Below, piece by piece: positions 18,217-29,175 of a stretch of DNA of 64,000 nucleotides. Positions within the stretch are counted from its first letter, which is position 1. The number at the start of each line of letters is the position of its first letter. Where the stretch lies: the NCBI GenBank assembly GCA_025362395.1, contig JANYGK010000078.1, positions 1 to 64,000 of the forward strand, written 5' to 3'. The notes under the pieces were generated by a model. It searched no databases, was not told the DNA's origin, and saw nothing but the letters and a program-made list of their open reading frames with translations. The DNA comes from Bacteroidota bacterium. GTDB taxonomy: Bacteria > Bacteroidota > Bacteroidia > B-17B0 > Aurantibacillaceae. The translations under genes and the position numbers were made by a program.

Positions 18217-18909
18217 TTAAAACTCAAATTTATACCCGATCCCTTTAATGGTTTTAATATAATTGTCTCCAAGTTTTTCACGCAGCTTACGAACATGAAC
18301 GTCGATTGTTCTGTCTCCTACTACTACTTCATCTCCCCAAACCTGCTCTAAAATATACTCACGGGTAAATACTTTGCCGGGCTTACTGGCTAATAAAGAC
18401 AAAAGTTTAAATTCTTTTTTAGGAAAAGAAATCTCCACATCATTTTTGTAAACCATGTATTTTTCCTTATCAATTTTAATTCCCCCTAAATCAACTTCCG
18501 TTGGTTTTTGCTGTTCGGGAGAATAGCGTCTTAACAAGGCTTTTATTCTGCTGATAAATACTCTCGGCTTAATAGGCTTGGTTATATAATCGTCGGCCCC
18601 AACTTCAAAACCCGCTATTTGGGAATAATCTTCGTTTCTGGCGCTTAAAAAAGCGATCATTACATCTTTAAGAGCGGGTAATTCCCTGATCTCACGGCAT
18701 GTATCGATACCATCCATTTCGGGCATCATTACATCCAATACAATTAAATTTGGAATTTCTTTTTTGGCAATGGCAATAGCATCTTTTCCGTTTAAGGCAG
18801 TGTAAACTCGGAAATCTTCTTTTTTTAAATTGTAACTTAAAAAATCTAAAATATCCTGTTCATCATCTACCAGCAGGATTTTATATATACTATTATTTTC
18901 TGTACTCAT
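18217..18909 (-). CDS. PhoB-like OmpR-family response regulator
   Basis: Receiver with VDDEQD, phospho-acceptor 'LIVLDVMMPEMDG' and 'TKPIKP'; wHTH 'DRTIDVHVRKLREKLGDNYIKTIKGIGYKF'. Confidence 0.9.
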   Translation of the reverse strand: MSTENNSIYKILLVDDEQDILDFLSYNLKKEDFRVYTALNGKDAIAIAKKEIPNLIVLDVMMPEMDGIDTCREIRELPALKDVMIAFLSARNEDYSQIAGFEVGADDYITKPIKPRVFISRIKALLRRYSPEQQKPTEVDLGGIKIDKEKYMVYKNDVEISFPKKEFKLLSLLASKPGKVFTREYILEQVWGDEVVVGDRTIDVHVRKLREKLGDNYIKTIKGIGYKFEF

Positions 18910-18925: not shown

Positions 18926-18969
18926 CAAAGTTAAATTTAAAGCCCTTGGCTAACGTTAAATTAACATTA
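18926..18969 (-). promoter_or_regulatory. Candidate Pho-box array plus -7 box upstream of phoB-like gene
   Basis: Minus strand TAATGTT-AATT-TAACGTT (11-bp phase), then TAACTTTG (-7 consensus TAnnTTTG) at 18933-18926. Confidence 0.65.
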
Positions 18970-19143
18970 AGAAATTGCTTCGTTTAAGTTGTGTTTCACT
19001 ATTTCTTACACTAAACATATAGGATTAAAAGTACGTATTTAAAGCGGATTTTTCTAAACATTATTTTGAAGAAGGATACTATAACCGGCATAAAAAAAGG
19101 TTAATCGATCCTAGTCCTGTTTTTATCTAAGTTCAACACAACC

Positions 19144-19187
19144 TAACATTTGCTTAGCAAAGGCGTAATATGTATTCCGTTTCTTTA
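19144..19187 (+). promoter_or_regulatory. Candidate Pho-box array upstream of pstS-like gene
   Basis: TAACATT-TGCT-TAGCAAA-GGCG-TAATATG, 11-bp steps; degenerate -7 (TTTCTTTA) ends 43 bp after the first repeat start. Confidence 0.5.
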
Positions 19188-19211
19188 CAGTCGAAATTAC
19201 TATCTTATTAT

Positions 19212-20126
19212 ATGATCTTTATTAAAAAAACAATATTCATCGGCCTTTGCACATTATTAATCTCATCCTGTAATTCAAACAAAACCGGGGATAACTCAAG
19301 CAATAACACTGATACGATTACCATTAAAGGCTCTGATACAGAATATGAAATGGTGAAGGCCTTGGCAGATGAATACATGAAACTTCATCCCCAAATTACC
19401 ATAACCGTGGAAGGCGGTGGCTCTAACGCAGGCATAGATGCCTTGATCAATCATCAAGTAGATATCTGCAACGCTTCACACAGCATGGCGAAAAAAGAAA
19501 TGTCAGCTGCAAAAGAAAATAATATTACCCCTAATCCTATTATTTTTTCTGTTGACGCGGTTGCTATTATTACAAATTACCGCTTGTGTATTGACAGTCT
19601 TTCTACAGAGGAGATTTCTCAACTTTTAAGCGGTAAAATTAAAAATTGGAAAGAGCTCAACGGGCCTAATGTTCCTGTTACTATTTATGGCAGAAATAAA
19701 TCTTCGGGGACACAGGATTATATTAAAGAAAAATTTATAAAAGGAAACTTAAAAGCGTATTCCGTAGAATTAAAAACAAATGATGAAATAGTAGAACATG
19801 TAAAAAATGATATTGGCGGGATAGGTTATGTAGGTGTAGGGTTTTTAACGGACAGTACAGGTAAACCAAACGGAAAAATATGGGCCATGCCTATACATAT
19901 AGATAACCACAGGGCATATTCGCCCTACGAGCCTGAGGCGGTAAAAAACGGCGACTACGTATTAACACGGCCTTTATACCAGTATGTAAAAGGAATACCC
20001 GGTGGGGCCATAGAAGATTTTATTTTGTTTGAACTCACTAAAAAAGGTCAGGATATTGTGAACCATTTTGGCTTTTTTCCTATTAACGACAACCAAGTTC
20101 AAATAAACAGACTGAAAGGATTGTAG
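19212..20126 (+). CDS. PstS-like phosphate-binding lipoprotein (start revised from 19170)
   Basis: ATG at 19212 gives lipoprotein signal MIFIKKTIFIGLCTLLISSC; PBP-like 'TIKGSDTEYEMVKALADEYMKLHPQITITVEGGGSNAGIDAL', 'GRNKSSGTQDYIKEKF'. Confidence 0.88.
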   Translation: MIFIKKTIFIGLCTLLISSCNSNKTGDNSSNNTDTITIKGSDTEYEMVKALADEYMKLHPQITITVEGGGSNAGIDALINHQVDICNASHSMAKKEMSAAKENNITPNPIIFSVDAVAIITNYRLCIDSLSTEEISQLLSGKIKNWKELNGPNVPVTIYGRNKSSGTQDYIKEKFIKGNLKAYSVELKTNDEIVEHVKNDIGGIGYVGVGFLTDSTGKPNGKIWAMPIHIDNHRAYSPYEPEAVKNGDYVLTRPLYQYVKGIPGGAIEDFILFELTKKGQDIVNHFGFFPINDNQVQINRLKGL

Positions 20127-20181
20127 CTTTATTTAATGTTAATTTTACAATTAATTAGCTAAATTCGTGCAAAAAAATAAT

Positions 20182-20586
20182 ATGTCGGTAACAATTAAGC
20201 AACTTATTGATAAAAACAAGGAAGCATTTGACAAAGGATTTTTTATTGAATCAATCAACCTTAGTTACATTTTAATTAATAAGGCCATTAAACAAATAGT
20301 TAAGGAAGAATTAAAGCAGGACGAAATAGATCAGAAAATAAAAACAACTTCACTGATAAGTCATATTAAAAAAGAATTAGTAACGAGTATTACTTTAAAA
20401 AGGAAGGTTTCGAAAAAAGTGATTAAAGACATAGAACTCTTTATAAAACTCTATAAAGAAATAGGCAAAGAGCTAAAATTTCAATTTCCGGAAAAAAAAA
20501 TCTGTGATAGTTCTCAACTGGGAATAAACTGTATTGTAATACTCAATACTAATTTAGTAAAGATCAAAAACAACAAGGTTGAATAA
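20182..20586 (+). CDS. Small hypothetical protein, alpha-helical (HEPN-like impression)
   Basis: ORF track gives GTG at 20167; ATG at 20182 preferred. 'KGFFIESINLSYILINKAIKQIVKEE' helical pattern. Confidence 0.5.
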   Translation: MSVTIKQLIDKNKEAFDKGFFIESINLSYILINKAIKQIVKEELKQDEIDQKIKTTSLISHIKKELVTSITLKRKVSKKVIKDIELFIKLYKEIGKELKFQFPEKKICDSSQLGINCIVILNTNLVKIKNNKVE

Positions 20587-20723
20587 GCTTTGTTAACTTA
20601 TCAATATATTCGACCAAAAAAACATTCTCCACTTTTAAGGGGCCTATTTAAAAGATAGCATTGATTATATCTAGTCTTTCAAGGTTAAAACGGGATCATT
20701 AAAAAAATTTCTCTTTAAAGAGT

Positions 20724-20778
20724 TAATGATTAACTAATCTAATAGTACCAAGCAGTTCATTTTAAACACGGAGCTTTG
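20724..20778 (+). promoter_or_regulatory. Weak candidate Pho-box array upstream of the phosphatase gene
   Basis: TAATGAT-TAAC-TAATCTA-ATAG-TACCAAG at 11-bp steps; CTTTG ends 43 bp after the second repeat start. Confidence 0.35.
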
Positions 20779-20782
20779 CAAT

Positions 20783-21580
20783 GTGAAAATGAACTCTTCA
20801 ATGATATTAGAACCCTCCATATCGGCTCACGAACATAGTCTGCTGTATGCACAAACTATACAAAACGGATTACTGCCTAAAACAAGGCACTTTGAAAAAT
20901 CATTTAAAGATCATTTTATTTTATACAAACCACAGGATAAAATAAGCGGAGATTTTTACTGGCTTACAAAAAAAGAAGACACGGTGTTTTTTGCTTTAGC
21001 GGATTGCACAGGCCACGGGGTTTCGGGTGCCATGCTATCAGTGTTGGGTATAAGCTTATTAAACTATGTAGTGCAAAAAAACTTTTCGTTGGTTGGTGAT
21101 TATTTAACCGAGCTTGATAAAAAATGGGTTGAAACATTTAATGGCGAACTCAACGATTCTTATTTTAATAATGATTGGATGGAGATAACATTGTTTTCAT
21201 ACAATACTAAAACAAAGGAGTTTCAGTACGCATGCGCGGGAGGTGAGTTTGCCATATATCAAAATAATACTATAAGTACACACAAAGGCAACAGTTTTCC
21301 CGTAGGTGGATGGCAGATAGAAAAGAACAGGGAATTTACCACACACTATGTAACGCTTGAACCCGAGGCTAAATTATATTTTTTCTCTGATGGATTAAAA
21401 CACCAGTTTGATAATACTAACAAAAAAAAGTTCGGCCGCAAACGCTTGTTAAACGCTATAGAGCATTATCACACCTTTTCTTTAGAGAACCAACATGAGC
21501 TGCTCGATTTCATTTTTAATGCATGGAAAGATACCACGTCGCAAACGGATGATGTTACCTTAATAGGAATTGAACTTTAA
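20783..21580 (+). CDS. SpoIIE/PP2C-type serine/threonine phosphatase (stand-alone)
   Basis: 'KPQDKISGDFYWLTKKEDTVFFALADCTGHGVSGAMLSVLG', 'FFSDGLKHQFDN', 'TSQTDDVTLIGIEL'. GTG start in ORF track; ATG at 20789 or 20801 possible. Confidence 0.88.
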   Translation: MKMNSSMILEPSISAHEHSLLYAQTIQNGLLPKTRHFEKSFKDHFILYKPQDKISGDFYWLTKKEDTVFFALADCTGHGVSGAMLSVLGISLLNYVVQKNFSLVGDYLTELDKKWVETFNGELNDSYFNNDWMEITLFSYNTKTKEFQYACAGGEFAIYQNNTISTHKGNSFPVGGWQIEKNREFTTHYVTLEPEAKLYFFSDGLKHQFDNTNKKKFGRKRLLNAIEHYHTFSLENQHELLDFIFNAWKDTTSQTDDVTLIGIEL

Positions 21581-21641
21581 TTGTAAACCAAACGGCATGT
21601 TAAGTTAATATTATATAATTGCTCTTTTTAACTACGCCATT

Positions 21642-21696
21642 TAATGTTAAGGTAACATACGCTTAATAAAAAAATTAATTCCCCTTCGTTTTTTTG
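21642..21696 (+). promoter_or_regulatory. Candidate Pho-box array plus -7-like box upstream of TonB receptor
   Basis: TAATGTT-AAGG-TAACATA-CGCT-TAATAAA at 21642/21653/21664; TTTG ends at 21696. Confidence 0.65.
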
Positions 21697-21716
21697 CGGT
21701 CAGTAAAATCCACTAT

Positions 21717-24608
21717 ATGTTTAAAAAAATATCGCTTATTATTACCCTTTTAGTTTTTTCCTACATAACTAATGGGCAAACCGGGAAAATAACCGGAAAA
21801 ATCGTTGACTCTAAAACTGGTGAAACACTTCCGGGAGCTACTGTATTGCTTGAAGGAACAACAAAAGGCGCGTCAAGTGATTTTGACGGAAATTTTAGTT
21901 TAAATAATGTGCCTGTCGGCTCACAGGTTCTTATTGTGAGCTTTATTACGTATGATTCAAAAAGACTAGCAGGAGTAAAAGTTCCGGCAAACGATGTACT
22001 CAATTTAAATATTACGCTTGATCAATCGTCTTCTCAAACCTTAGGTGAAGTAATAGTTCAGGCAGAAGTAAATAAAGAAAACAATACTGCCTTAGTGATG
22101 CAACAGAAAAATAATGCAAGCATAAGCGACGGTATCAGCGCCGAAACCATTAAGCGCACGCCTGACAGAAATACCAGCGATGTTTTAAAACGTGTAAGCG
22201 GCGTTACCATCCAGGACGATAAATTTGTAATTATTCGCGGATTAAATGAACGCTATAACGGATCCTATTTAAACGGTTCGCCCTTGCCAAGTACAGAACC
22301 CGATAAAAAAGCATTTGCTTTCGACTTGTTCCCTTCCAATATGTTGGATAATATTATGATCTACAAAACAGCCAGACCTGATATGTCAGGGGAATTTGCC
22401 GGAGGTATTGTAGAGATCAATACGAAAAGTATCCCCGAGAAAAATTTTGTTTCTGTTAGCGGAGGCCTAGGTTATAATACCGTTACCACAGGGAAAGCAA
22501 AAACAGTGTATGACGGTGGAAAGTATGATAAATTTGGTTTTGATGACGGCTCTAGAAATTTACCTTCACAAGTACCTGCCCAGGCAGATAAAGCGTCGTG
22601 GATAGCAAACAAAGATCAGGCGCGTGTGGCTACTTATTTCAACAATGATTGGGGTTACAGCCAATCTAAATTTGCTCCAAACTCCTCCGCGCAAATAGCT
22701 GCCGGTTATAATTTTAAATTAAAAGGCAGAGATTTTTTAGGGGTTATCGCCAGCTTGGGATATAACTCTACACAAACCTTGTATACAATGCAACGAACAG
22801 AATACAATGGTATCCATGTATACGATACAGATCCAAACGCTGTCGGAAAACAGAATGAAACATTTAATAGAATAAATCAAACACAGGTGTCAACGGGGGC
22901 ATTGCTTAACCTCGCCTGCAAAATAAATGAAAACAATACAATCAGTTTAAAAAATATGCTCACCGGATACGCAGATAATAAATTTATAAGTGCAAGCAGC
23001 ATTAATTATAATGATTCCCGCGAATACAAAAGCAGGATCAATTCCAGGTTTTTTACCGCTAACCGTATTACCTCTTCACAACTAAACGGGGATCATCTTT
23101 TAGCAAAATCAAAAATTAAAATAGGATGGAATGCCGGTATCAGTACTATTCAGAGAACCGTACCGAATTTAAGAATGACCTCTTATACTAAAAGAGATTC
23201 TTTAGATCCAAGTAACCCGTATCCGAAGGATACTGTTTACAAAGCCGACATTGGTAATGGGGGAACAACAGGACCTAATTATGCCGGCTATAGGGTTTAC
23301 TCTCAATTAAATGAAACCATTCAAAACGCTAAAATGGATATTTCAAGGCCCTTTAAAGTAACGGAAAACTTTAAGATTGAGGCTAAAATAGGCGGGTTTT
23401 ACCAAGGCAGGTCTCGCCAGTTTAACATCAGGCAGTTTGGGTTAAACCAATATACGGCCCCCGGAATTAATAAAGATGACAGCCTGTTGTATTTACCGGA
23501 AAATGAAATATTTTCTGCTCAAAACATGAGTGTAACTCCTCTGGGAACAGGAGGATTTAAATCCACAGAAATTACGCATGATGACGATAATTACCATGCA
23601 ACCTCAACACTTTTGGGCGGATACGGCATGGTAGAACTTAAATTAAAAGATAAGATCAGGCTTATTGGCGGCCTGAGATATGAAAGTTATACGCAACAAA
23701 TAAATGTAAAGTATAAAAGTTTAGATTCTATAATTGTAAAAAGTACCATTAATGATTTTTTACCTTCCGTTAATTTAATCTATAATATCAATAAAACCTT
23801 GGGTGTTCGATTATCCTATTCTAAAACACTTAACAGGGCTGAGTTCAGGGAACTGGCTGTTACCAATTGGTTTGATCCTGAAACACGATTATCCATTGCG
23901 GGTAACCCTGCGTTAGTACGTTGTTATATTCAAAACTTGGATGCGCGTTTTGAAATTTATCCGGGCCGCGGACAACTATTTACCGTATCAGGGTTCTACA
24001 AATATTTTAATACACCCATTGAACGTTATATGTTGAAGGCAAATGAAAACCAGATTTATTACCGTAATGCAAACTTTGCAACTGTATACGGAGGAGAGCT
24101 TGAATACAGGGTAAACGTTGGCGCCATTCTAAAAAAAGATTCTATACGGTTTTTAAATAACTTAAACCTGTTCTCAAATTTATCGCTTATTAAATCGGAA
24201 GTAAATGTAAAAGGCATTAACAGCTCGGTGCCTGATACGCGCACTATGCAAGGGCAGGCACCTTATATTATTAACGCGGGTATATCGTACATCGATATTA
24301 AAAACGGATTTAGCATAACAGGAATGGTTAACAGGGTGGGAGATAAAATTTATATTGTAGGAAATGAAATAGATGTTGATCGTTGGGAAAAAGCACGGAC
24401 TGTGGTTGATTTACAGGCAACCAAATCATTTTTTAAAAACAGGCTGGAGCTTAGAATTAACGTAAAAGATTTGCTGCATAAAGATTACATTATTTATTAT
24501 AAAAGAGCTGTGACAGAAAAAGGTCCTTACAACCCAACAGTGGATTATGTAAATTTTAAACGAAACTTCGGAAGTACTTACTCTTTTATAGTAAGCTATA
24601 AATTTTAA
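21717..24608 (+). CDS. TonB-dependent receptor with CarboxypepD_reg-like domain
   Basis: 'GKITGKIVDSKTGETLPGATVLLEGTTKGASSDFDGNFSLNNVPVG', plug 'RTPDRNTSDVLKRVSGVTIQDDKFVIIRGLNERYNGSYLNGSPLP', barrel C-terminus. Confidence 0.93.
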   Translation: MFKKISLIITLLVFSYITNGQTGKITGKIVDSKTGETLPGATVLLEGTTKGASSDFDGNFSLNNVPVGSQVLIVSFITYDSKRLAGVKVPANDVLNLNITLDQSSSQTLGEVIVQAEVNKENNTALVMQQKNNASISDGISAETIKRTPDRNTSDVLKRVSGVTIQDDKFVIIRGLNERYNGSYLNGSPLPSTEPDKKAFAFDLFPSNMLDNIMIYKTARPDMSGEFAGGIVEINTKSIPEKNFVSVSGGLGYNTVTTGKAKTVYDGGKYDKFGFDDGSRNLPSQVPAQADKASWIANKDQARVATYFNNDWGYSQSKFAPNSSAQIAAGYNFKLKGRDFLGVIASLGYNSTQTLYTMQRTEYNGIHVYDTDPNAVGKQNETFNRINQTQVSTGALLNLACKINENNTISLKNMLTGYADNKFISASSINYNDSREYKSRINSRFFTANRITSSQLNGDHLLAKSKIKIGWNAGISTIQRTVPNLRMTSYTKRDSLDPSNPYPKDTVYKADIGNGGTTGPNYAGYRVYSQLNETIQNAKMDISRPFKVTENFKIEAKIGGFYQGRSRQFNIRQFGLNQYTAPGINKDDSLLYLPENEIFSAQNMSVTPLGTGGFKSTEITHDDDNYHATSTLLGGYGMVELKLKDKIRLIGGLRYESYTQQINVKYKSLDSIIVKSTINDFLPSVNLIYNINKTLGVRLSYSKTLNRAEFRELAVTNWFDPETRLSIAGNPALVRCYIQNLDARFEIYPGRGQLFTVSGFYKYFNTPIERYMLKANENQIYYRNANFATVYGGELEYRVNVGAILKKDSIRFLNNLNLFSNLSLIKSEVNVKGINSSVPDTRTMQGQAPYIINAGISYIDIKNGFSITGMVNRVGDKIYIVGNEIDVDRWEKARTVVDLQATKSFFKNRLELRINVKDLLHKDYIIYYKRAVTEKGPYNPTVDYVNFKRNFGSTYSFIVSYKF

Positions 24609-24613
24609 CCGCT

Positions 24614-24690
24614 TAACATTAAAATAACATAAACTTTAGTATAGCGTAAGTTTAAATTAATTAAAAAGAAATATACACCCTTTAATTTTG
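24614..24690 (+). promoter_or_regulatory. Candidate Pho-box array plus -7 box upstream of secreted protein
   Basis: TAACATT-AAAA-TAACATA-AACT-TTAGTAT-AGCG-TAAGTTT at 24614/24625/24636/24647; TAATTTTG at 24683-24690. Confidence 0.7.
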
Positions 24691-24711: not shown

Positions 24712-26394
24712 ATGAAAAAACAACTACTTACAGCATTATCAGTGCTAACATTAGGTGTAACCGTAGCCCAAACAGGGTTCTTTACGCCAACTTCATTCCG
24801 CGGTGCCTTTGCGCCTGCGCCAACTGCTATGTGGACAAACACATGGACGGAATGGGATCCTCAATTTAAAGTATATCCTGCCCCAACCATGACTGTTACA
24901 GGTAACATTACAAGTAATACAACCTGGACAACCGGTCAAACAGTGCTTTTATCCGCAACGTGTTTCGTAAAAAACAATGTAACATTAACTATTCAACCGG
25001 GTGTTGTTATCAGAGGCGATAAATCTGTTACAGGTGCCGGTTTATTTATTACTACAGGTTCTAAATTAATCGCTAACGGAACAGTGAGTCAACCAATTGT
25101 ATTTACATCCGATCAAGCTCCCGGAGGAAGAACGGCAGGTGACTGGGGCGGAGTTATTTTATTGGGTCTTGCAACTAACAACAGCCCTGCAGGAACAGGT
25201 ACATTAACTAACTCTGCAGGTACAAACTATATTGAAGGATTACCTATATCTGCTGATACGCAATATGGCGGATCACTTGATGCTGACAACTCAGGGTCTT
25301 TACAATATGTTCGTATTGAATATGGAGGATACGTTTATCAGCCGAACAAAGAAATTAACGGTTTAACATTTGGTGCTGTCGGTTCAGGTACAACTATCGA
25401 TAACATCCAAGTGTCTTTTTCAAATGATGACTCTTTTGAGTGGTTTGGCGGCTCAGTAAACTGTAAACACTTAGTGGCTTACCGCGGTTTAGATGATGAT
25501 TGGGATACAGATAACGGTTATCATGGAAATGTACAGTTTTGTCTTGGTGTTCGTGATCCTCAAATTTCTGATAATCCTTCAGTATCTACTTCAGAAGGTT
25601 TTGAATCAGATAACGATCCAAACGGAACAACATCAACTCCTTTAACTTCAGCTATATTTACTAATATTACTGATATTGGTCCATTAAGAGGTGTGCCTAC
25701 AGCTACCTGTGCGAGCGGGTTTCAAAGAGGTGCGCGTATCCGTCGTAATTCTAACTTAAAAATTTATAATTCTATTTTAATGGATCATAAAACACGCGGT
25801 TTATATGTTGACGGTAGCTTATGCGAAGGAAACGCAAACTCGGGTGCTTTAAAATTTATGAATAATATTGTAGCAGGTTACGGTGCAAGAGCAACAGAAA
25901 CAGGAACTTTTGGCATACTTGTTAGTCCTAACACGTGGATTAAATCTCAACCTAACGATACGTTGCTTTCTTCAGCAGGTATTTTAACAACGCCTTATAA
26001 CTATACAAGCCCTGATTACAGACCGGCTGCTTTAAGTATAGCTTTAGCGGGCGCAAGCTTTACGGATGGTCCTATCGCAGCTAACACTAATACAGTTGTT
26101 GGTCCAAACTCAATTGCAGGTCATAATACTGAATTAAATACTGTAGTCTTATATCCTAACCCAACAGCAGATGTAAGCTCTTTAAGCTTTAATGCTGCTC
26201 ATAGCACAGAAGTGTCTGTATATGTATCAGACGTTACAGGTAAAATTGTTTTAACCGCGGCTGAAGGCTTAGCAATGAACGCCGGACAGAATACAATTAG
26301 TATTAACAGTGCTTCTTTAACAGCAGGAATATATTTTGTTACTATAAAAAGTTCTTTAGGTAACGAAACACTTAAAATGGTTATAAATAAATAA
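24712..26394 (+). CDS. Secreted beta-helix-like protein with T9SS type A sorting domain
   Basis: Signal peptide; 'VKNNVTLTIQPGVVIRGDKS...GSKLIANGTVSQPIVFTSDQ'; C-terminal 'LYPNPTADVSSLSF...AGIYFVTIKSSLGNETLKMVINK'. Confidence 0.85.
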   Translation: MKKQLLTALSVLTLGVTVAQTGFFTPTSFRGAFAPAPTAMWTNTWTEWDPQFKVYPAPTMTVTGNITSNTTWTTGQTVLLSATCFVKNNVTLTIQPGVVIRGDKSVTGAGLFITTGSKLIANGTVSQPIVFTSDQAPGGRTAGDWGGVILLGLATNNSPAGTGTLTNSAGTNYIEGLPISADTQYGGSLDADNSGSLQYVRIEYGGYVYQPNKEINGLTFGAVGSGTTIDNIQVSFSNDDSFEWFGGSVNCKHLVAYRGLDDDWDTDNGYHGNVQFCLGVRDPQISDNPSVSTSEGFESDNDPNGTTSTPLTSAIFTNITDIGPLRGVPTATCASGFQRGARIRRNSNLKIYNSILMDHKTRGLYVDGSLCEGNANSGALKFMNNIVAGYGARATETGTFGILVSPNTWIKSQPNDTLLSSAGILTTPYNYTSPDYRPAALSIALAGASFTDGPIAANTNTVVGPNSIAGHNTELNTVVLYPNPTADVSSLSFNAAHSTEVSVYVSDVTGKIVLTAAEGLAMNAGQNTISINSASLTAGIYFVTIKSSLGNETLKMVINK

Positions 26395-26498: not shown

Positions 26499-27191
26499 AT
26501 GAATAAAGGCTTTAACATAGTTATCTGTTCTAACTCGGAATCGTCTATAAAAAAAATCATAGACTTTCTGGAAGAAAAATTATACAATGTATCCTATGCT
26601 AAAAATGAAGAAGACCTGTTAAAACAGATCAAAAAAAATGATACGCAATTAGTTGTTCTTGAATTAGATCTTAAACATAAAGACGGGATAACCATTACAT
26701 CAGATATTCGTAATTTAAAAGACATTGAACAGCCTTACATTATTATTTTCTCCAACAAGCAAGACGACTATATACAAATAACCGCTTTTAATTCGGGTGC
26801 CGACGATTTTATTACCACACCGATCAAACCTATTTTACTGGAAGCAAGAATTTGTACGCTAAAAAAAAGGCATGCGAATTCACAAACCAACCGGGAAATA
26901 ATTCATGATCCTTCTAAATTTTTTGTAGACCGGGAACAATATTTGATCGTTACTGAAAACGGTAAAATAAGCCTGCCGCGGAAAGAGTTTGAAATGATTG
27001 ACCTCATGTTTCAAAACGCACATAAAGTATTTACCCGTCACGATTTTGCAAAACTCATTTGGAACGCCCCTGAAGTAGCCAACAGCAGGACTATTGATAT
27101 ACATATCCGAAATATAAGGCGCATATTAGGGAATGATATTATTAAAACATCCAAAGGAATCGGTTATACCATTAACCGCGATTTTTTATAA
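26499..27191 (+). CDS. OmpR/PhoB-like regulator with degenerate receiver domain
   Basis: 'LVVLELDLKHKDG' aligns with 'LIVLDVMMPEMDG' (D->E); 'TTPIKP' in place of 'TKPIKP'; intact wHTH 'SRTIDIHIRNIRRILGNDIIKTSKGIGYTI'. Confidence 0.85.
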   Translation: MNKGFNIVICSNSESSIKKIIDFLEEKLYNVSYAKNEEDLLKQIKKNDTQLVVLELDLKHKDGITITSDIRNLKDIEQPYIIIFSNKQDDYIQITAFNSGADDFITTPIKPILLEARICTLKKRHANSQTNREIIHDPSKFFVDREQYLIVTENGKISLPRKEFEMIDLMFQNAHKVFTRHDFAKLIWNAPEVANSRTIDIHIRNIRRILGNDIIKTSKGIGYTINRDFL

Positions 27192-27226: not shown

Positions 27227-28222
27227 CTAATTACTTTTAGGGTACGTATCAAATAAAAACTGAAGTGTTTCAGGAATAGTATTACTTTGAACCTTTGGGT
27301 TCGATTTCGGATCACTCAACCATTTTAAAATGTTATCCGCAAAATGCTCATCCGCATCCTCTAAAACAGTTACGCCCATTTTTCTTAAAGCAGCCGCATT
27401 GCATTGCTGTTCATAATGATTTTTAATGGGAATGCTCATTAATTTTTTACCGAGGTATAAGGCTTCAGCCGGTGTTTCAAAACCTCCGCCCGTAATTAAA
27501 CCCAAACAATTTAATAAGCTTTGATTAAAAAGCTGTTGGTTCACGGGGTAAAAGGTAATATTATTTTGAACCGTTATTTCTTTAATACCGTCTAAGAACC
27601 AATGAAATTGAAGGTGTTTCAAATGTGTAAACGCCTGCAATAAGCAATGTTTTTGGAAAGACGGCAGGTATACTGTTATATGTTTTAAATTTTGAACGGA
27701 AGCATTTATAAATTCTTCTTTAATTACCGGTGGCAATACAAACGAATCATACTTTTGAAAATGAAATCCGATATGCTTGGTAGCATGCGCGTAATGTTTT
27801 AAGATTGTTTCACCTACTATACTTTTTTTATCGGGTCGCGGCGTATTATCAGATTGAAAACTGGCCTGGTGACCTAATTGAACAGAAGGAACTTTTTGAA
27901 GCTTACAGGCTAAGGAGGTTACAAAATCAAAGTCATTAATAACAACATCATATCGCTTCAACGGCAACGCTTTAGCATCTTTGTACATAGATAAAGGCTT
28001 GATATTTTTTACAATATCCATGTAATTTAAACCGCCACATTTGCTGTAGTGTAAGCTGCAACCGTCGCTGCGATACCGAACAGGAAAATTAAAATCGAGG
28101 TTCGAATTATTACCACTTACAAAAAAATCAACTTCCCCAAATTTTTTAAGGTACGGATATAATTGTGCAGCTCTGCTAATATGGCCGTTGCCTGTGGCTT
28201 GTACCGCGTAAAATATTTTCAT
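27227..28222 (-). CDS. Glycosyltransferase family protein (GT-B fold-like)
   Basis: 'MKIFYAVQATGNGHISRAAQLYPYLKKFGEVDFFVSG' and 'LGLITGGGFETPAEALYLGKKLMSIPIKNHYEQQCNA'. Confidence 0.8.
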   Translation of the reverse strand: MKIFYAVQATGNGHISRAAQLYPYLKKFGEVDFFVSGNNSNLDFNFPVRYRSDGCSLHYSKCGGLNYMDIVKNIKPLSMYKDAKALPLKRYDVVINDFDFVTSLACKLQKVPSVQLGHQASFQSDNTPRPDKKSIVGETILKHYAHATKHIGFHFQKYDSFVLPPVIKEEFINASVQNLKHITVYLPSFQKHCLLQAFTHLKHLQFHWFLDGIKEITVQNNITFYPVNQQLFNQSLLNCLGLITGGGFETPAEALYLGKKLMSIPIKNHYEQQCNAAALRKMGVTVLEDADEHFADNILKWLSDPKSNPKVQSNTIPETLQFLFDTYPKSN

Positions 28223-28225
28223 AAA

Positions 28226-29047
28226 TTAAGATGCTAAAATTTTCTTTACAATATCCTGTTCATCGGGCTTATCAATAGGATAAATCAGGTCTAAATAATT
28301 TTTATCGTAACTAAAAATTTCCCATTTACCATTATCATATTCTAACGCTGTTAAGTTCTCTACCCAATCGCCGCTGTTCAAATACGTTACTTTTCCTTTA
28401 TCGGTTACCACATTTCGTATTTGCGGCATGTGTATATGCCCGCACACTACGTAGTCATAATTTTTTTCAATAGCAATTTCTGCAGCTGTACTTTCAAAAT
28501 CACTCACAAAGGCTACCGCTTTCTTTACACCGTCTTTTACCTTTTTTGAGAAGCTCATTTTTTCTCTTCCGAATAATTCCAATACCCAATTAATAAACCG
28601 ATTAATAAGGATTAGCCAGTCGTAGCCTTTGCCTCCAAGTTTCGCTAATAACTTTGCATAGCCTTTAGTAGAGGAATCAAACACATCGCCATGGAAGATC
28701 CAGGCTGATTTACCGTCAATATTCAATAACAGTTTATCTACAATCTCAAAATTTCCAAGAATCAAGTCAGTATACTTTCTCAGCATCTCATCGTGGTTGC
28801 CGGTAATATAAATAACACGCGTGCCTTTGCTTGCCATTTTCATAATATGCCTGAGCACATCCATGTGTGAGGCCGGAAAATAACTTTTACTGAAATTCCA
28901 CATATCAATAATATCTCCATTGAGTACTAAAGTTTGCGGGTTAACCGTTTTAAGGTAATGTAATAATTCCTTTGCGTGGCAGCCGTATGTACCTAAGTGT
29001 ACATCGCTGATAACTAATAGTTGCAATTCACGTTTACTATACATCAT
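28226..29047 (-). CDS. UDP-2,3-diacylglucosamine diphosphatase-like metallophosphoesterase
   Basis: 'LVISDVHLGTYG', 'NGDIIDMWNF', 'ITGNHDEML', 'VCGHIHMPQI'. Confidence 0.85.
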   Translation of the reverse strand: MMYSKRELQLLVISDVHLGTYGCHAKELLHYLKTVNPQTLVLNGDIIDMWNFSKSYFPASHMDVLRHIMKMASKGTRVIYITGNHDEMLRKYTDLILGNFEIVDKLLLNIDGKSAWIFHGDVFDSSTKGYAKLLAKLGGKGYDWLILINRFINWVLELFGREKMSFSKKVKDGVKKAVAFVSDFESTAAEIAIEKNYDYVVCGHIHMPQIRNVVTDKGKVTYLNSGDWVENLTALEYDNGKWEIFSYDKNYLDLIYPIDKPDEQDIVKKILAS

Positions 29048-29175
29048 TAGTTTTTACAAACTTAGGTGTGATGTATTACTTTAATGTAGCTTATACATTA
29101 AGAAAATAAAAAGAATAGCAAATAAATGTGAACTTAATATTACTAACCGATACAAAGAAGAAAATAGAGAGGGAA

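Follow-up and report, generated by a model that had tools for sequence, protein, structure and literature searches.

The 64,000-nucleotide stretch of DNA analysed here as a whole (the window; positions 1 to 64,000 of contig JANYGK010000078.1, assembly GCA_025362395.1, from a Bacteroidota bacterium of the family Aurantibacillaceae) contains a locus at which a gene for a PhoB-like response regulator of the OmpR family lies among genes whose upstream regions carry direct repeats in 11-bp steps, set in register with the Bacteroidota -7 promoter element TAnnTTTG. We describe these repeats as candidate Pho-box-like operators of this regulator. The genes concerned, one of which encodes a protein exported by the type IX secretion system (T9SS), are:

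18217..18909, minus strand: PhoB-like OmpR-family response regulator (Pfam Response_reg and Trans_reg_C), the likely binder of the repeats
19170..20126, plus strand: PstS-like phosphate-binding lipoprotein (PBP_like_2; TIGR02136 at 199.8 bits, just under the 206.6 cut-off)
21717..24608, plus strand: TonB-dependent receptor (Pfam) adjoining phoB, the syntenic counterpart of Fjoh_0545
24712..26394, plus strand: T9SS-exported protein (Por_Secre_tail), the positional counterpart of the low-phosphate lipoprotein FII (Fjoh_0546)
26499..27191, plus strand: second PhoB-type regulator with a degenerate receiver, from an alignment of 12 orthologs (L127-L145)
27227..28222, minus strand: glycosyltransferase (Glyco_trans_1_3) downstream of the PlcP-like gene
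28226..29047, minus strand: calcineurin-like phosphoesterase (Metallophos_2, PF12850), a PlcP-like candidate for lipid remodelling

The repeats form the following boxes, with distances counted to the terminal G of the -7 word:

18926..18970, minus strand: phoB promoter box, TTAATGTT-AAT-TTAACGTT followed by the -7 word TAACTTTG, terminal G at 18926
19144..19187, plus strand: weaker pstS box, TAACATT/TAGCAAA/TAATATG at 43/32/21 bp from the poor -7 word TTTCTTTA
20134..20167, plus strand: hyp139 box, TAATGTT/TTACAAT/TAGCTAA at 33/22/11 bp from TAAATTCG
20724..20778, plus strand: spoIIE-gene box, TAATGAT/TAATCTA/TACCAAG/TCATTTT at 54/43/32/21 bp from GAGCTTTG
21642..21696, plus strand: TonB-receptor box, TAATGTT/TAACATA/TAATAAA/TTAATTC at 54/43/32/21 bp from TTTTTTTG, G at 21696
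24614..24690, plus strand: T9SS-gene box, TAACATT/TAACATA/TTAGTAT/TAAGTTT/TAATTAA at 76/65/54/43/32 bp from TAATTTTG, G at 24690
29057..29100, minus strand: plcP/glycosyltransferase operon box, TAATGTA/CTACATT/TAATACA at 43/32/21 bp from TAAGTTTG

An earlier, sequence-only reading of this DNA had described such repeats before phoB, the TonB receptor and the T9SS gene, and every repeat word, coordinate and distance that it quoted proved exact to the base when rechecked against the window sequence; the spoIIE, hyp139 and plcP/glycosyltransferase boxes are additional to that set. It had also proposed a fixed distance of 43 bp between the repeats and the terminal G of the -7 box. A unit does stand at 43 bp before phoB (TAATGTT at 18969, followed by TAACGTT at 18958, 32 bp from the terminal G of TAACTTTG), before the TonB receptor and before the T9SS gene (unit starts at 24614, 24625, 24636 and 24647, with TAATTAA as a fifth unit at 32 bp). 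The strongest pair of units, however, varies in position, lying at 43/32 bp in phoB, 54/43 bp in the TonB promoter and 76/65 bp in the T9SS promoter. What is constant is the register: the distance to the -7 element is 10 mod 11 (21, 32, 43, 54 bp and so on). The pstS-like gene, placed by the same reading in this register with a poorer -7 box, belongs there (units start at 19144, 19155 and 19166) if its coding sequence starts with the ATG at 19212 and not at 19170, a start that the box layout implies and that is followed by a lipoprotein signal; the same layout is present in G068, the one relative with pstS. The -7 word of the TonB receptor, TTTTTTTG, is a poly-T run without the A.

Each promoter holds two to five units. 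The trained 11-bp unit matrix reads TAAYRTWAANN, in which positions 1-7 (TAAYRTW) are strongly conserved, positions 8-9 are weakly A and positions 10-11 are free; when the T preceding the unit is counted, the core is TTAAYRTT.

TAAT-like words 11 bp apart could arise by chance in AT-rich intergenic DNA, and the genome scan for the phased motif that the sequence-only reading had proposed gave a divided answer on this point. Across the genome the bare two-repeat pattern shows no enrichment (291 matches against 309 for a reversed control), so that in DNA this rich in AT the repeat word is not specific by itself, without the -7 element, and many matches with one or two mismatches are scattered over the genome. 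Once the -7 element was included in a composite pattern, phoB and pitA were found: the phoB box is the sole 0-mismatch match in the window's own genome, and a second site recurs in about ten genomes of the genus, 21 bp upstream of pitA. The product of pitA is a PHO4/PiT phosphate transporter (E = 1e-90), encoded in the own genome on another contig (G000:C75) and unlinked to phoB.

We then ranked promoters with a unit matrix trained on relatives' promoters only, with the window and its closest relative excluded, against 263 upstream regions of the own genome drawn from a 0.47-Mb sample. Among the 263, phoB ranked 1, pstS 2, the TonB receptor 3, the T9SS gene 5, plcP 7 and pitA 9, where the rank of pstS reflects the shared phoB box read from the other strand, and where ranks 4, 6, 9 and 11 are not independent, L146, L273 and L276 having been picked for the background because they hold pattern matches. 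The best phase was 10 in six of seven promoters, the exception being hyp139 at 0. Random rotation of the phases of all seven promoters gave no result as good in 200,000 trials, and rotation of the four promoters that the sequence-only reading had not described gave p = 0.0007; both values are optimistic, since the -7 words of spoIIE, hyp139 and plcP were chosen by eye and the search pattern had itself fixed the phase of pitA in the own genome.

The arrangement is retained across dozens of relatives. Within the genus, the phoB upstream region reads TTAATRTT-TAY-TTAACNTT followed by TAnnTTTG at the same distance (43-bp spacing), and the phoB site is the top match to the composite pattern in nearly every genus genome listed. 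TonB promoters of relatives carry four consecutive phased units that run up to the same poly-T -7 word (e.g. TAATATTAAGG-TAATATATGCT-TTATATTAACC-TTAACTAGGTA-TCGTTTTTTTG), T9SS promoters carry up to five units, the hyp139 box is phased in several relatives and the plcP/glycosyltransferase box has a similar layout in L128. When the -7 word was picked by an automatic procedure that took no account of phase, phase 10 was best in 13 of 20 phoB, 8 of 10 spoIIE and 12 of 13 T9SS promoters, the expectation being 1/11; for the TonB promoters of relatives it was found in 4 of 13, mostly because the poly-T -7 word was not picked and open reading frame starts were miscalled. Across 34 loci from other Bacteroidota at a greater distance, the region upstream of phoB came first within its locus in 68%, and a period of 11 scored 7.9 bits above background, as compared with 1.9-4.0 bits for the other periods from 8 to 16. 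Held-out ranking, phase test, phase kept at orthologous promoters and period specificity all contradict chance, which we regard as a highly improbable origin of the boxes.

In the phoB/hyp139 intergenic region of L128-L131, L136 and L138, we observed a second box, TTAATATT-NNN-GTAATATT, which faces hyp139, opposite the phoB box, and which is not seen as such in the window.

The likely binder, the product of 18217-18909, combines a phospho-Asp receiver, in which D15/D16, D59 and K111 are intact by alignment, with a winged-helix output domain; 82 of 87 family genomes contain an ortholog of it. Its two best matches are the PhoB models TIGR02154, the best curated NCBIfam model (225 bits, below the 296 cut-off), and NF053854, the Bacteroidales PhoB (209 bits, below the 270 cut-off); we call it PhoB-like because it falls below these curated cut-offs. 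Identity with RprY was considered and rejected, the protein scoring 136 bits against a cut-off of 370 for the RprY model, compared with the 225 bits for PhoB.

The paralog encoded at 26499-27191 adjoins the T9SS gene throughout the genus. Its phospho-Asp is replaced by Glu in 12 of 12 orthologs, the acidic pair is lost and the lysine replaced, and the DNA-binding helix is kept. The gene is probably part of the T9SS operon; its own upstream region ranks 253 of 263 in the matrix scan and holds no box. Since OmpR-family regulators all bind phased direct repeats, the sites might belong to another member of the family, either this paralog alone or together with PhoB, or an RprY- or ArcA-like general regulator, with the link to phosphate being incidental. 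The paralog is conserved beside the boxes and has a similar recognition helix, and the PhoP of Riemerella anatipestifer, with the core motif TTTAACA, shows very broad binding, an ArcA-like motif and higher pstS expression in the mutant (PMC9603813, PMC5399024). Against this, conservation is highest at the box of the phoB promoter itself, including in loci that show no paralog, the RprY model scores far lower (136 bits) than the PhoB model (225 bits), and the unlinked targets are phosphate genes (pitA, pst). We consider such an assignment improbable.

The association with phosphate genes extends beyond the locus. Repeats of the TTAACATTNNCTTAACATT and TTAACATT types precede pitA in more than 20 family genomes. 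A box stands before pstC or pstS in 6 of 30 distant pstC loci (class and phylum), and eight Flavobacteriaceae-type loci have one ahead of a glycosyltransferase gene close to phoB. About 22 named Bacteroidota loci have phoB next to genes for a TonB receptor and a protein of the T9SS type, a kinase of ~350 aa usually coming next, and the phoB-phoR-TonB-T9SS/lipoprotein locus recurs across the phylum. The own genome has its PhoR-type kinase ortholog at G000:C64:11702-12742, unlinked to phoB; it shares 73% identity with the kinase that adjoins phoB in G050. The T9SS protein is the counterpart of FII by position, homologs lying beside TonB and phoB in 21 loci.

This organisation is in good agreement with that of the Flavobacterium johnsoniae phoBR cluster (Fjoh_0541-0549), in which phoB likewise adjoins a TonB receptor and the exported FII (layout Fjoh_0543-0546), with a glycosyltransferase nearby, and in which phoB, the TonB receptor and FII (Fjoh_0544/0545/0546) as well as the glycosyltransferase Fjoh_0541 are strongly induced at low phosphate, phoR not being so (PMC8115612). 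We examined the phoR promoter of the own genome and found no box, in keeping with F. johnsoniae. The two systems differ in that no operator sequence has been described for F. johnsoniae and that phoR is unlinked in the window genome. Metallophos_2 (PF12850), to which the phosphoesterase belongs, is also the Pfam family of the PlcP Fjoh_4577 (PMC8115612), and putative Pho boxes have been predicted near plcP clusters, flavobacteria included; we found no sequence for them in the main text of that study (PMC4796936).

The E. coli PHO box consists of two 11-nt direct repeats with 7 conserved and 4 less conserved positions and the core CTGTCAT (PMC4415409). Several features that mark a PHO box in that description are found here: an 11-bp period of tandem repeats, 7+4 conservation, a PhoB-type regulator and a promoter-proximal position at its own gene and at phosphate genes (phoB, pitA, some pst and plcP-like genes). 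The differences lie in the core, which is TTAAYRTT and not CTGTCAT, in the register, which is set to a TAnnTTTG -7 element and not to a -10, and in the number of units, which reaches five. The sequence-only reading had held that the core differs. This is so with respect to E. coli; the statement does not extend to Riemerella PhoP, for which DNA affinity purification sequencing gave TTTAACA as the most conserved motif (PMC9603813). That protein shares with the present case the phylum, membership among the OmpR-family Pho regulators, a TTAACA core and autoregulation (predicted here), a likeness drawn by motif, and it differs in that the text of the paper describes neither 11-bp phasing nor a -7 register, and in that the binding reported there is broad and not centred on phosphate (PMC9603813). 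In Bacteroides fragilis, PhoB (BF1576) binds the pstC promoter region, and pst and a phosphate permease depend on it (PMC3547664); this is another Bacteroidota PhoB, for which no motif was defined, and its pst operon is absent from the window genome. We found no earlier definition of an operator sequence for a Bacteroidota PhoB in the open literature, a search that excluded subscription papers and regulon databases. The Bacillus subtilis PhoP box, in a different phylum and with sigma-A promoter geometry, is made of TTAACA-type 11-bp direct repeats and has a very similar core and the same 11-bp phase.

Taken together, a PhoB-type operator set against the Bacteroidota -7 element, as the sequence-only reading had proposed, is the best fit by far: PhoB is the best curated match of the regulator, its own promoter holds the best-conserved box, and boxes stand at phosphate genes. 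Judging from sequence, we put the probability that the phased repeats are Pho-box-like operators of the regulator 18217-18909 at about 0.85. Several observations weigh against this reading, besides the unenriched bare pair and the scores below the PhoB cut-offs. The hyp139 box is one base out of the common register, the -7 element of pstS is poor, pstS is present at this locus in only two genomes of the genus, and promoters from one genus do not count as independent observations. Such a box is missing from most of the 30 pstC loci, of which many are GC-rich, and true PhoX genes in two Flavobacteriaceae lack a convincing one. A wider look at the PhoX genes of 20 named genomes showed that few are true PhoX and that none has a convincing box, with the exception of one weak divergent PhoX-like gene. 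Finally, a TIGR02138 search of the own genome found no PstC, so that pitA may be the main phosphate importer and the PstS-like protein an orphan.

If the repeats are operators of the PhoB-like regulator, each 11-bp unit, lying on one face of the helix, would take one regulator subunit, head to tail, in a row running towards the -7 element. The proximal subunit, on the unit at 32 or 21 bp, would cover the -33 region and contact RNA polymerase, replacing the -33 contact, which would transfer the E. coli arrangement (PMC4415409) to a -7 promoter. The regulator would be activated at low phosphate via the PhoR-type kinase and would then raise expression of its own gene, of the genes for the TonB receptor and the T9SS protein, and of spoIIE, the plcP/glycosyltransferase operon, pstS and the unlinked pitA. 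The overlap of the boxes with the -33 region is also compatible with real PhoB-type sites at which the regulator acts as a repressor of some targets, chiefly pitA, by occupying the promoter. Some bacteria do repress a pit gene through PhoB. The pitA boxes share the register of the phoB box, though, and a B. fragilis phosphate/sulphate permease falls 52-fold without phoB, which suggests activation (PMC3547664); we therefore think repression unlikely. A rather doubtful elaboration of the PhoB-operator reading has two regulators acting on the same phased operators, the phosphorylatable PhoB and the degenerate paralog 26499-27191. PhoB would switch on the paralog via the T9SS operon, and the paralog would then hold the regulon on without the phosphate signal, as a latch.

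Bacteroidota play a major part in recycling phosphorus in soils, in the sea and in the gut, and omics studies have identified their low-phosphate genes. If the operator is defined by the unit TAAYRTWAANN, a period of 11 and the -7 register, the regulon becomes predictable from sequence, and the locus would offer a rare worked case of activator placement on the unusual -7/-33 promoter of this phylum.

Matches of the TTGTGGCATTAGGTTTG form were considered as Pho sites and rejected, as they look like sigma-54 promoters. A recurring TTTTGGCATTAGGTTTG-like site at G000:C43:94681, with same-looking sites in other genus genomes, likewise has the appearance of a sigma-54 promoter.

In G028:C91, G009:C43, G080:C39, G084:C3, G041:C3, G072:C137 and G069:C9, two full PHO4 domains occupy one frame of ~970-1000 aa, as if tandem copies of pitA had fused. 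Further PhoB-like regulator genes with phased boxes of their own are present at L149:4070-4081 (minus strand) and L160:3127-3138 (plus strand). Lastly, at G000:C13:31150-31578 (L276) in the own genome, divergent genes for T9SS-type proteins have phased boxes on both sides, one of them 43 bp from TAAATTTG, and this pair may possibly represent further members of the regulon.

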